NCBI GenBank assembly: GCA_003650925.1 | Contig: QMSP01000023.1 | Coordinates: 1-32,456, forward strand | Direction: 5' to 3' | Source: Thermoprotei archaeon | Lineage (GTDB): Archaea; Thermoproteota; Thermoprotei; QMSL01 | Length of the DNA: 32,456 nucleotides | Part shown: piece after piece, positions 19,217 through 26,806 of the stretch | Layout: every line of letters begins with the position of its first letter | Position numbering within the stretch: the first letter of the stretch is position 1 | The notes under the pieces: model-generated | Database searches by the model: none | Seen by the model: the letters and a program-made list of their open reading frames with translations, nothing else | What the model was told of the DNA's origin: nothing | Program-made: the position numbers and the translations under genes

Positions 19217-19229
19217 TTCGCCTAGCGAA
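19217..19229 (-). repeat. Small hairpin 3' of the TnpB-like gene (candidate element right end)
   Basis: TTCGC-cta-GCGAA is a perfect 5-bp inverted repeat 22 bp after the TnpB-like stop. IS200/IS605-type elements carry subterminal hairpins at both ends, and TnpB guide RNAs come from this side. No second copy in the window proves an element boundary. Confidence 0.3.
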
Positions 19230-19251
19230 ACTGTCTCATTTTTCATAGGCA

Positions 19252-20298
19252 TTAATAGGCGTTTATAGATTTTAAACACCTTATTGCTAGAAGATACGCT
19301 GAGCTTACATGTATATCTAATCCTAGTTTTCTGCTTAGAGGTATTGCATCTACTGATGTGAAAGCAGGATTTACCTGTACAAATTTTCCTTTCTTCTTTC
19401 TTACCATGACCTTGGCATGTTGCAATAGTTCTGCATAGGCGAATCTAGACACTTTTCTACTAGCACTTTTTGTCTTCATCTTTTTCTTAGGAATCTTCCT
19501 AATCTTTTCAAAGACAAAATACTTCACATTATGGTAACAGGCATAGTTAATCAGTTCTGAAAGAGCCTTCAGCCTTAGGTCTTTGGCTTTATTCTTGGGA
19601 AAACCAACTAATGTCACCTCTGGGAAATGTTTTGTCTTCACATCTCTTATGTTTCCATTAGTATCTACAATTACCATGCATATCCTATCAGGGTTTATAT
19701 CAAAACCAGCAATTAGATGTGCTTTAGAGCTAACCTTAACCTTGGTAGTATGTTTAGCATAAAGCTCTAAAGGTATATGAAGGTGCAAATAGTATTTTCC
19801 TTTGTTGAAAACCACACTTACTGAATATGGCATACCATTATTAGCTCGTTGGATAAGCTCCTCAATTAATGGAATGTGCCTTGAGTGAAACTTAACCTTA
19901 GCCTCTAACCATTCATGTCTTCCATCTACATGTGGAATCTTGATTAGTACTTTATCAACCGATACCAGTCTGATATTCCTATTTCCCTTTTCACATCCCT
20001 TACCAACACTATATAGTTGTGGTTTCTTGAAATTCAGTCTTTCCTGATCGAGATATGCCATAGCTCTCTTAGTTGCTGAATATGCATAATGAGCATTACC
20101 TATAAACTTGGTAACCCTCCTAGTAGCTTCTTCATGTTTCAAACCCTTCTTCATTAACCTATATGCCATCTCAACGGCATCTCTGAATAGTCGCCCAGTG
20201 TAGAGGAGTTTTGCTAATGCAAATCTATCTTCAATAACTAACCTACCTTTTATTGTAACTTTTTCTTCACTACTATTTTCCCGTCTTCTACGTGCCAT
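19252..20298 (-). CDS. TnpB-like (IS605 OrfB family) RuvC protein without zinc ribbon
   Basis: 348 residues. A basic N-terminus (MARRRR) and a helical/beta region precede the RuvC-like nuclease: motif I AGFDINPDRICMVIVD (Asp200), motif II YFVFEKIRKIPKKK (Glu264) and motif III GLDIHVSSAYLLAIRCL (Asp328). All three acids are present, so nuclease activity is possible. The CxxC...CxxC zinc ribbon that TnpB usually carries between VNPxxTS (here VNPAFTSVDA, 309-317) and motif III is absent, leaving only about 10 residues. ATG 20298 lies inside the abrB-like frame, so the two genes overlap by 49 bp. TnpB proteins are RNA-guided nucleases of IS200/IS605 transposons; no tnpA is visible. It may be a non-autonomous element or a domesticated nuclease. 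Confidence 0.8.
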   Translation of the reverse strand: MARRRRENSSEEKVTIKGRLVIEDRFALAKLLYTGRLFRDAVEMAYRLMKKGLKHEEATRRVTKFIGNAHYAYSATKRAMAYLDQERLNFKKPQLYSVGKGCEKGNRNIRLVSVDKVLIKIPHVDGRHEWLEAKVKFHSRHIPLIEELIQRANNGMPYSVSVVFNKGKYYLHLHIPLELYAKHTTKVKVSSKAHLIAGFDINPDRICMVIVDTNGNIRDVKTKHFPEVTLVGFPKNKAKDLRLKALSELINYACYHNVKYFVFEKIRKIPKKKMKTKSASRKVSRFAYAELLQHAKVMVRKKKGKFVQVNPAFTSVDAIPLSRKLGLDIHVSSAYLLAIRCLKSINAY

Positions 20299-20396
20299 TC
20301 TATCACATCCCCCACATCTATATTCAGAGCAACACGGACGGCTCTTGGGATGGCTACTAAGTATCGTTTCGAAACTCTCGATTCAGCTATTTTCAT
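20250..20396 (-). CDS. AbrB/SpoVT-type DNA-binding protein, 48 residues, overlapping tnpB-like gene
   Basis: The frame from ATG 20396 to TAA 20250 reads MKIAESRVSKRYLVAIPRAV, then continues with an ALNIDVGDVIEW core and a VEDGKIVVKKK end. This is the swapped-hairpin AbrB fold (ESRVSxKYQVxIPKxVRxxLxIxxGDxIxW in relatives), as in archaeal antitoxin-like regulators. AAGGA lies 5 nt before the ATG, and box A is at 20427-20436. The last 49 bp overlap the start of the TnpB-like gene in another frame, so both must come from one mRNA and are probably coupled. It likely represses this promoter; the perfect palindrome at 20442-20461 is a candidate site. No toxin gene other than the TnpB-like protein is adjacent. 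Confidence 0.85.
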   Translation of the reverse strand: MKIAESRVSKRYLVAIPRAVRVALNIDVGDVIEWHVEDGKIVVKKKLQ

Positions 20397-20426
20397 AGTA
20401 ATTCCTTAGTAATCTTCTCAGAAAAA

Positions 20427-20436
20427 CTTATAAATC
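20427..20436. promoter_or_regulatory. Box A shared by abrB-tnpB (minus) and a plus-strand RNA
   Basis: The plus strand reads CTTATAAATC and the minus strand GATTTATAAG; the core TTATAA is symmetric. On the minus strand it predicts a start near 20406, 10 nt before the abrB-like ATG. On the plus strand it predicts a start near 20457, at the first base pairs of the structured segment. Confidence 0.55.
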
Positions 20437-20441
20437 TTCTG

Positions 20442-20461
20442 CTACCAATATCTATTGGTAG
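20442..20461. repeat. Perfect 20-bp palindrome beside the abrB-tnpB promoter
   Basis: CTACCAATA-tc-TATTGGTAG has 9-bp arms without mismatch. It lies just upstream of box A for the minus-strand genes and between box A and the start site for plus-strand transcription, so a dimer bound here could control both directions. It could also be a left-end hairpin of an IS605-type element. Confidence 0.6.
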
Positions 20462-20616
20462 TTTCGATTCCGATGAAGGTTGAGGAGATGAACTTTGGAT
20501 GTGTCTCCATGTCGCTGAGGGGAGTTAGGAACAAAATGACTAGCTCTCGTAGGAGGCATGGAGACGAAACTCGGGTAATGAAAGCTTATGTAGGCAATCA
20601 TAGACCTACGTAAGCT
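20457..20616 (+). ncRNA. Candidate structured RNA divergent from abrB-tnpB
   Basis: No gene is present here, but four nested or serial helices are. GTTTC (20461-20465) pairs with GAAAC (20566-20570) and closes a junction. AAGGTT (20476-20481) pairs with AACTTT (20491-20496). GTCTCCATG (20503-20511) pairs with CATGGAGAC (20557-20565), with GAGTTAG/CTAGCTC (20522-20528/20540-20546) above it. A separate 12-bp hairpin follows (20583-20594 with 20605-20616). Three stems contain a G-U pair that is allowed only if the plus strand is transcribed (it becomes A-C on the minus strand). A box A 26 bp upstream would start the RNA near 20457. I see no match to tRNA, SRP RNA, RNase P RNA or a C/D guide. The 3' end is unknown. 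Confidence 0.5.
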
Positions 20617-21559
20617 AGAACCCTCTAACATAGGGCTTGCCTAGTGATGCTGGAGCCCCTATTCGCTTCCTTATTCTTTCAAAGCTTCCTACCAGGAGAA
20701 CAATTATTGTAGCAACGTAAGGGAAAGTGCCTAGAAGTGATGGGTCGATCCCCATGGCCTGTAGAGGCATCTGAAGCCAGTACTGAAGCACTTCAGTTGT
20801 CCCAAATAGATAAGCTCCTATCATAGCTCTTAGTGGATCCCACATGGCGAATATTACAAGAGCGAGCGCTATCCAACCTCTTCCAACGGTTATACCTTCA
20901 ACCCACATGGGCGTGTAGGCCAGGGATATGTGAGCACCAGCTAGACCAGCCATAGCACCTCCAAAGGTTGTACATATGTATCTAACTAAGTAGACATTGA
21001 CCCCCATAGCATCAGCTGCTGACGGATCCTCCCCTACAGCTCTTATCCAGATCCCATATTTCGTCTTGTACATTATGAACCAAAGGATGAGCGTTATAAA
21101 GTATGAAGCATACACAAGAATATCGTGGTGAAAGAATCCTTCTCCAATGATGGGAATCCTGCTGAGGCCAGGTATTTTCACGGGCCTTAGAGCTCTCTTA
21201 AGGGCTATTCCAACATAGTCCCTAGCCATGAGGCTACTAAGGCCAGTGCCGACCATGACAAGAGCTAGTCCAGCAACCACTTGATTAGCTTGAAGGCTTA
21301 TGCATACAAATGCATGAAGAAGACCTATTATGGCTCCAGCTACGATTGCAGCCAGTACTCCAAGTTCTGGACAGCCCGTGCTATAAGCTACGATGAAGCC
21401 AGTAGCAGCACCTATCAGCATTATCCCCTCAAGTCCTAGATTAAGAACTCCAGACCTCTCAGCATAGACTTCGCCTAAAGATGCTAAGAGGAGAGGAGTG
21501 CCAGCCTTTATGGAGATATTGAGTAGATGGCCAAGCTCTATAATGAGCGAGGAGGTCAT
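20615..21559 (-). CDS. Nucleoside ABC transporter permease (BMP-type, NupQ/YufQ-like)
   Basis: 314 residues, mostly membrane helices. PLLLASLGEVYAERSGVLNLGLEGIMLIGA (about residues 19-48) is the hallmark of this permease branch. ANQVVAGLALVMVGTGLSS, GEDPSAADAMGVNVYLVRYICTTFGGAMAGLAGA (the coupling EAA-like loop) and GRGWIALALVIFAMW follow. It pairs with the second permease to form the channel of a sugar-type (RbsC-like) importer fed by the BMP-domain lipoprotein-like binder. ATG 21559 overlaps the upstream permease stop by ATGA and has GGAGGT upstream. Last gene of the four-gene operon. Confidence 0.93.
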   Translation of the reverse strand: MTSSLIIELGHLLNISIKAGTPLLLASLGEVYAERSGVLNLGLEGIMLIGAATGFIVAYSTGCPELGVLAAIVAGAIIGLLHAFVCISLQANQVVAGLALVMVGTGLSSLMARDYVGIALKRALRPVKIPGLSRIPIIGEGFFHHDILVYASYFITLILWFIMYKTKYGIWIRAVGEDPSAADAMGVNVYLVRYICTTFGGAMAGLAGAHISLAYTPMWVEGITVGRGWIALALVIFAMWDPLRAMIGAYLFGTTEVLQYWLQMPLQAMGIDPSLLGTFPYVATIIVLLVGSFERIRKRIGAPASLGKPYVRGF

Positions 21560-26423: not shown

Positions 26424-26557
26424 CAATTACCATTAACAAAGTACCTAATAGACCTATCACTGAGAGATGAAGGTGGATATCCATGCTCGTTCCTTGAGAA
26501 GAGGCTATAGCTAAGCTGTACAACATATACTAAGGGGATGATGAGGGGCAGAAGCAT
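26423..26557 (-). CDS. Small 44-residue ORF upstream of the HTH-PRTase regulator
   Basis: ATG 26557 to TGA 26423-26425. The protein begins MLLPLIIPLVYVVQLSYSLF, one short hydrophobic segment, then a polar tail with NEHGYPPSSLSDRSIRYF. A strong box A at 26587-26596 predicts transcription from about 26566, only 9 nt before this ATG, so it would be read as a nearly leaderless mRNA. Its stop overlaps the ATG of the regulator (TGATG), which has no ribosome-binding site of its own. Layout, not similarity, supports it; I do not recognise the protein. It could be a membrane micropeptide or simply a translated leader that feeds ribosomes to the regulator. Confidence 0.45.
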   Translation of the reverse strand: MLLPLIIPLVYVVQLSYSLFSRNEHGYPPSSLSDRSIRYFVNGN

Positions 26558-26562
26558 TGGAT

Positions 26563-26596
26563 TGTACCTTTCTGTACCATAATGTTCCTTTTTATA
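26563..26596 (-). promoter_or_regulatory. Promoter with three 10-bp-phased repeats (operator)
   Basis: On the plus strand TGTACC, TGTACC and TGTTCC begin at 26563, 26573 and 26583, exactly one helical turn apart. The minus-strand box A TATAAAAAGG (26587-26596) touches the third copy, and the other two cover the expected start site near 26566. Repeats on one face of the helix between box A and start site are a typical archaeal repressor arrangement. The neighbouring HTH-PRTase protein is the natural candidate to bind here. Confidence 0.6.
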
Positions 26597-26623
26597 CTCT
26601 CAATACCATCATGACCCCATAAG

Positions 26624-26633
26624 ACTTATAAGG
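26624..26633 (+). promoter_or_regulatory. Box A of the kink-turn RNA candidate
   Basis: ACTTATAAGG on the plus strand. Its centre is about 26-28 bp from G26656, the first bases of the GC-rich structured stretch, and no plus-strand gene follows. Confidence 0.5.
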
Positions 26634-26654
26634 GGTAGCAATTTATGAGCTTAT

Positions 26655-26806
26655 TGGTGCCCCTCGGGTGGGTGAGGGGAGCAATGCTCCCGTAGCTTGC
26701 CCAAGGGAGACCGTGATGAACCTAACCGTGTCAGATATAGTTGATGAAGATACGGTTTAGGTGAACGGCATTCCATATGACCTGATGAGAGCTGGTCTAT
26801 GGGGAC
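26655..26806 (+). ncRNA. Candidate structured RNA with a canonical kink-turn
   Basis: This gene-free stretch is GC-rich in its first 60 bp and folds well as plus-strand RNA. CCCCTC/GAGGGG (26661-26665 region with 26674-26679) or GGGAGC/GCTCCC can form the 5' hairpin. Then CCGT (26711-26714) pairs with ACGG (26765-26768), GAT (26715-26717) is a 3-nt bulge, GA (26718-26719) faces GA (26763-26764), and ACCTA (26720-26724) pairs with TAGGT (26758-26762): C-stem, bulge, tandem sheared G-A pairs and NC-stem of a kink-turn, the L7Ae site. The stem goes on with CCGTGTC/GATACGG (26726-26732/26749-26755), whose G-U pair holds only on this strand. CCATA-t-GACC/GGTC-TATGG (26774-26783/26793-26801) is a final hairpin reaching the end of carA. 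It matches no RNA class I know. The 3' end is a guess. Confidence 0.5.

Follow-up and report, generated by a model that had tools for sequence, protein, structure and literature searches.

TnpB nucleases, which work with guide RNAs known as omegaRNAs or reRNAs, are the closest described counterparts of the locus analyzed here. They belong to the OMEGA systems found in elements of the IS200/IS605 and IS607 types, SisTnpB1 from Sulfolobus islandicus being one example, and have the same TnpB/Cas12f-like fold, with RuvC residues D-E-D, that is predicted below for the protein of this locus. In OMEGA elements encoding IscB or IsrB, the RNA likewise lies 5' of the nuclease gene; it is transcribed from the nuclease's strand and carries the guide at its 5' end. 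The guide RNAs of TIGR-Tas systems are C/D-like. The TnpB elements that have been studied, including one from Sulfolobus (PMC10640517), have a target motif beside the left end, a guide RNA scaffold that ends at the right end, and a flank that serves as the guide.

The window, a 32,456-bp stretch of DNA, is one of the 81 contigs of a 2.14-Mb Thermoprotei archaeon assembly with a completeness of 98.6%. It contains a 1,401-bp mobile element (positions 19223 to 20623, itself strand-neutral) located at the 3' end of an importer permease gene. The left end of the element abuts a GCC motif on the plus strand (19220 to 19222), which occupies a TAM-like position. On the minus strand follow the gene for a 348-residue TnpB-like nuclease (19252 to 20298) and, overlapping its start, the gene for a 48-residue AbrB/MazE-type DNA-binding protein (20250 to 20396; Pfam PF04014, 1.1e-9). 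The plus strand then carries the TATA-like box TTATAAAT (20428 to 20435), recognized by its sequence as a promoter element of the RNA, and the scaffold of a structured RNA (20457 to 20623), the start of which is predicted; a start near 20457, as proposed in an earlier note on this DNA, is consistent with the position of the box. Like the TnpB/omegaRNA elements, this one has a motif on one side, a scaffold ending at the other, and no target duplication. It differs from them in that the RNA has a gene of its own, transcribed away from tnpB, which is inverted; that the zinc ribbon used by the studied TnpBs is absent; that the motifs are GCC or GGGGY instead of TTTAA/TTTAT; that the RNA ends in a kink-turn; and that the element has no tnpA. 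Unlike the IscB/IsrB systems, its RNA lies on the strand opposite the nuclease gene, the predicted guide is at the 3' end, and the protein is Cas12-like rather than Cas9-like.

The RNA segment is a member of a conserved structured RNA family that resides in a mobile element. Its plus strand folds with −60.9 kcal/mol (z = −5.5), which none of 200 shuffles equalled, and the minus strand gives a less stable fold (−36.4; z = −3.4). All of the helices that the earlier note had claimed between 20457 and 20616 are present in the sequence. The long central hairpin (20503 to 20565, plus strand) and the 12-bp hairpin (20583 to 20616, plus strand) are conserved among relatives with many compensatory changes, but the closing helix GUUUC/GAAAC, which is present in the window, is not conserved in relatives in alignments judged by eye. 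The extent claimed for the structure also needs correction, since the conserved unit reaches 20623, where ACCC (20620 to 20623) pairs with GGGU (20573 to 20576) and thereby closes a kink-turn.

In a DNA search of 41 genomes, any match was found in 5, including the source genome; three others (G001, G036, and G040) have relatives of the RNA, and the match in G035 covers 24 nt of the promoter region only. A covariance model, R1, was built from 13 sequences, among them the window copy, which matches it at 20464 to 20625 (E 1.9e-40) as a member of its own seed. With strict filters, under which weak matches are lost, a search of 398 Thermoproteota genomes with R1 gave 81 matches at E ≤ 0.01, distributed over 35 genomes. 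When aligned, 88 matches (79 distinct) from 100 chosen loci showed double changes at 36 of the 39 model pairs, and 92.3% of the paired cells in the distinct copies could pair, compared with 65.6% after shuffling and at most 51.0% in slid controls; this alignment was fitted to the model and leans towards it. The seed was aligned by sequence alone, and its structure was derived from the same alignment; here, double changes occur at 25 of 39 pairs, and the paired cells reach 91.3%, against 79.4% when shuffled and at most 45.9% when slid. The 5' domain is moderately supported, with 79.9% of its cells paired. A TATA-like box lies at −75 to −15 in 44 of 67 distinct copies, compared with an expectation of 23% from shuffled upstream sequence. 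Relatives also occur on three contigs (L017, L023, and L024) labelled Odinarchaeota, Aenigmatarchaeota, and Baldrarchaeota, which reflects either a wider spread or mis-binned contigs.

The family includes an RNA that has already been catalogued, Sso133 (Rfam RF02814, Sulfolobus sRNA133). At gathering thresholds, Rfam yielded a single match, a tRNA; the only weaker match of note was that between the central hairpin of the window RNA and RF02814 (E 0.013; 23.8 bits), which lies below the gathering threshold of 44. RF02814 matches were present at E ≤ 0.01 in 14 of 81 genomes of the class and above the cut-off in 3. Genome G054 holds three copies above the RF02814 cut-off (81.3, 59.3, and 59.3 bits), and the same copies match R1 (E 7.9e-7, 1.7e-5, and 1.7e-5); therefore, Sso133 belongs to the RNA family. 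The central hairpin is common to both, RF02814 models 73 nt only, and its listing names no partner.

The 3' hairpin of the window RNA (20573 to 20623, plus strand) reads GGGU-AAU-GA-[helix]-GA-ACCC and thus follows the order C helix, NNU, GA, helix, GA, C helix. By pattern, this is a kink-turn, comprising a C helix, a 3-nt bulge, tandem GA, and an NC helix. The C helix covaries among the variants CCGU/ACGG, GGGU/ACCC, GAGU/ACUC, and GGGG/CCCC; in 79 distinct rows, it is 96.2% paired, with double changes at all 4 pairs. The kink-turn probably recruits L7Ae. Several subgroups contain GUGAUGA and (C)UGA boxes resembling boxes C and D, and in Sulfolobaceae a second C/D-like motif was seen by eye farther up the 3' hairpin. 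Such boxes, together with the classification of the Sulfolobus member in Rfam simply as an sRNA, would suit a box C/D-like or other L7Ae-binding small RNA that has a cellular role of its own and hitch-hikes on TnpB elements. Box C/D RNAs have similar kink-turn boxes; however, the strands between boxes C and D of this family are complementary to one another (88 to 92% paired in helices 7 and 8) and leave no free guide strand, so that the RNA is not an ordinary C/D guide. Given, in addition, its strong and oriented linkage to TnpB, a hitch-hiking cellular RNA appears very improbable.

The end of the RNA coincides with the end of the element. In a Sulfolobaceae locus (L159), tnpB, an AbrB-like gene, and the RNA lie within 1,510 bp between search strings, and the joined flanks are 91, 87, 79, and 78% identical across the junction to the empty sites of G411, G409, G377, and G228, respectively. 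The junction reads ...CTTTGCC/TTCCTC... or ...GCC/CTCCTC..., with neither target duplication nor loss, and a shared CC leaves the exact cut ambiguous by 2 nt. GCC remains on the tnpB side, and the last helix of the RNA abuts the opposite flank. On the tnpB side, GCC borders six insertions from Sulfolobaceae, in a count for which GCC was included in the search strings, picked after the loci had been inspected. The target motif is likewise GCC in A-type elements and GGGGY in others. The S14/S8 insertion (L019) kept the promoter of the S8 gene when compared with relatives, and divergence hides the exact bases there.

In the window, removal of 19223 to 20623 converts the permease end from ...KPYVRGF* to ...KPYVRGE*, and the relatives end in KPYVRGER (L218) and KPYAREERTA (L217). 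Because the junction restores the permease end, the insertion site and both ends of the element are fixed within a base or two. The insertion has changed the last residues of the permease (20615 to 20627; VRGE to VRGF*), and the present stop codon is element sequence. These results also bear on the suggestion, made in the earlier note, that the RNA is antisense to the 3' end of the importer gene. The predicted transcript would run opposite the final codons of the permease gene, but it points into that gene only because the element landed at its 3' end; the overlap is a result of insertion, and other copies point towards unrelated genes (S14 or a radical-SAM-like gene) or intergenic DNA. We therefore consider an antisense function hardly credible.

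Past the RNA end, conservation of the flank is lost. An end pattern requiring the last six bases selected 65 distinct copies from the 88 rows, and in these position +1 is T (77%) or C (23%), +2 carries 0.24 bits, and +3 onward carries approximately 0 bits. No terminator is evident inside the element, as TTTTT occurs in only 3 of 67 RNA bodies. The approximately 20 nt of flank directly beyond the window RNA (20624 to 20643, plus strand) would be its guide segment. The would-be target of such a guide has the motif on its 5' side, as in TnpB and its TAM, and no target other than the insertion site was found.

Insertion beside a short motif without target duplication is a property of IS200/IS605 elements, and the 12-bp hairpin adjoins the element end. 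The structure could accordingly be mainly a DNA end for a transposase, like the hairpin ends of IS200/IS605, with the RNA incidental. Nevertheless, the 3-nt bulge and tandem GA of a kink-turn are characteristic of RNA, the conserved central hairpin is located deep within the element, TATA-like boxes are enriched upstream, and no Y1 (IS200) transposase was found in the element or in the source genome assembly (98.6% complete), in which several TnpB subfamilies are present; we regard a role as a DNA end as quite unlikely. The source genome encodes four serine recombinases, and those of IS607 type occur elsewhere, outside the element. An IS607-like shared CC/GG core would fit the GCC/ACCC, GCC/CCCC, and GGGG/ACGG ends, and GCC/ACTC ends misfit. 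The loci of IS607-type serine recombinases in the same genome were also considered as an explanation of the RNA and rejected, as they contain no significant R1 RNA (best E 0.23).

The RNA and the TnpB-like gene travel together. With a profile of 18 relatives and a threshold of E ≤ 1e-30, the TnpB-like gene was found in 42 of 398 Thermoproteota genomes (93 matches). Both are present in 25 genomes, the RNA alone in 10, TnpB alone in 17, and neither in 346 (Fisher p 1e-20, an indicative value as the genomes are related); the 10 are thus those of the 35 RNA-bearing genomes without TnpB above the threshold. A TnpB match lies within 2 kb of 23 of the 81 RNA matches, and all 23 pairs are divergent, with gaps of 143 to 285 nt in 22 and 539 nt in one, which bears out the view in the earlier note that a structured RNA in its own right is oriented away from the AbrB-TnpB genes. 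When the 5' flanks of homologous loci were compared, 22 of the best 30 of 93 TnpB matches had an upstream R1 match (E ≤ 0.01), always on the opposite strand; the other 8 lack an R1 match, and a looser motif scan was suggestive in some of these 8 only. The check that the earlier note had set for its own proposal thus came out in its favour, as the structure accompanies the AbrB-TnpB pair rather than the importer operon. Since 8 of the 13 seed sequences adjoin tnpB, distant families outside the seed (e.g., Sulfolobaceae) weigh most. Of the 79 distinct copies, drawn from loci partly chosen through TnpB and hence a biased sample, 44 have TnpB within 1 kb; 41 are divergent, and 3 that overlap a stop-to-stop TnpB frame were left out of the divergent count. 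Another 27 lack TnpB although their sequence extends 1 kb or more upstream, and for the remaining 8 it is too short.

The earlier note did not recognize the 1.4-kb block as a mobile element, nor the shared end of RNA and element, nor the membership of Sso133 in the family. These features bear on a second interpretation of the linkage, in which the RNA is regulatory or serves in packaging, for example, by controlling tnpB or the AbrB protein, and tnpB uses an ordinary 3' guide RNA. The AbrB-type genes hint at regulation, as does the divergent promoter region, and the Sulfolobus TnpB described in PMC10640517 uses a 3' omegaRNA. Yet no guide RNA overlaps the 3' end of tnpB on the same strand here; that end faces the target-motif side, so that a 3' guide RNA would read the wrong flank, and for the window tnpB this candidate was rejected because its end bears the target motif. 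The conservation of the RNA also stops at the element end, and the structure is kept in stand-alone copies without tnpB or AbrB. On this evidence, regulation or packaging is an unlikely function.

The TnpB-like protein retains the RuvC residues D200, E264, and D328, which are invariant in 18 aligned proteins; the zinc ribbon or TNB domain that would lie between the last RuvC motifs is absent, with no Cys pairs in the same alignment. The protein has no Pfam match, and it matches NCBIfam guided_TnpB at 1.3e-9 (37.8 bits), below the curated cut-off of 100. The TNB domain (PF07282) is, however, found at 1.6e-18 in another TnpB encoded by this genome, one of IS607 type. An AlphaFold2 model based on 10 sequences (pLDDT 81, pTM 0.50) matched in Foldseek Cas12f (8j12, 1.2e-9), ISDra2 TnpB (8bf8, 5.5e-5), and also Cas12k. 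In VIA, residues 14 to 178 align with Cas12f (Z 14.8, rmsd 2.7) and residues 193 to 348 with RuvC (Z 14.0, rmsd 3.1), with Z values of up to 15.8; the placement of the domains is uncertain, because whole-length VIA rows have rmsd values of approximately 10 to 14. The model thus points to a Cas12f/TnpB-type RNA-binding plus RuvC fold. The small gene between tnpB and the RNA, which encodes AbrB in the window, has an AbrB-like counterpart in L159, as judged by eye. In L051, its place is taken by a gene for another kind of small protein, and Pfam matches neither the L159 nor the L051 protein.

The window itself contains a second, stand-alone copy of the RNA (26548 to 26768, plus strand; R1 match at 26619 to 26770, E 5.4e-7) between a phosphoribosyltransferase-like gene and a carA-like gene. 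It consists of the left-end motif AGAAGCATTGG..., a promoter, and the RNA, without tnpB; it ends in GAACGG, and its left end resembles those of tnpB-bearing elements of the same genome. This copy is among the 9 of 27 stand-alone copies with a left-end motif within 400 nt, compared with 0.48 expected from shuffles; inspection revealed a left end in three more (L158, L160, and L163), and 15 have no recognizable left end. The copy in L158, from a Sulfolobaceae genome, was excluded as a right-end example because an IS607-type element end replaces the last helix at the 3' end of the RNA (approximately 2080 to 2100), and the copy in L163 (approximately 1826) lies just beyond the 3' end of an older tnpB relic. 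A Sulfolobaceae stand-alone copy had no match at 1e-5 in either the plasmid or the phage collection. The source genome has several near-identical copies at contig starts or ends (L032 to L034, L039, and L040), two of them near tRNA-like genes, with different right flanks. Near-identity, contig ends, and different flanks suggest recent movement and that the RNA element caused the assembly breaks there. PMC3718332 and PMC3839810 describe SMN1, which is mobile in S. islandicus and 320 bp long, and a related non-inverted-repeat element, SMN2. The stand-alone copies are of similar size to these nonautonomous elements and, in a comparison by description only, may overlap with them.

Taken together, we consider it fairly probable that the RNA is the guide RNA of a TnpB variant, with the guide copied from the flank. 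This is the most economical reading, because the geometry is that of TnpB and its guide RNA, with a separate RNA gene and an inverted tnpB. The element inserts after a short motif (GCC in the window), and a separate promoter at its far end would drive the structured RNA, whose last kink-turn helix lies right at the element end. The transcript may then continue into the flank, which would supply the guide, and the TnpB-like protein, encoded on the opposite strand behind the AbrB-type regulator, would bind the RNA, with L7Ae probably recruited by the kink-turn. The resulting ribonucleoprotein would cleave sites that lack the element (motif plus flank) and thereby favour its retention or renewed copying. 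Stand-alone copies would have arisen by internal deletion, with both ends and the RNA retained, and they may provide extra guides in trans. More tentatively, and with somewhat less confidence than doubt, the RNA-guided nucleases of these elements may form an archaeal lineage of their own. Its guide RNAs would be independent genes with an L7Ae-bound kink-turn, mobile with or without the nuclease, scattered over each genome, and reprogrammed by their landing sites, and they would be served in trans by a TnpB lacking the zinc ribbon. No description of a divergent RNA for TnpB was found in the titles and abstract openings of the open-access matches listed or in passages of PMC12558985, PMC5539422, PMC3718332, PMC3839810, PMC3674436, and PMC10640517, which is weak evidence of novelty, and a search of open-licence PMC text yielded no paper combining TnpB, AbrB, archaea, and guide RNA.

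Under the guide-RNA reading, Sso133, an orphan sRNA of Sulfolobus, would gain both a partner and a function, and the system would define a TnpB variant in which the RNA is a free-standing gene and not part of the nuclease mRNA. This reading raises the questions of whether RNA-guided cutting requires a zinc ribbon, whether the landing site programs mobile RNAs, and whether L7Ae serves RNA-guided nucleases. If true, a heat-stable nuclease of approximately 350 residues with a separate guide RNA may also be of practical use.
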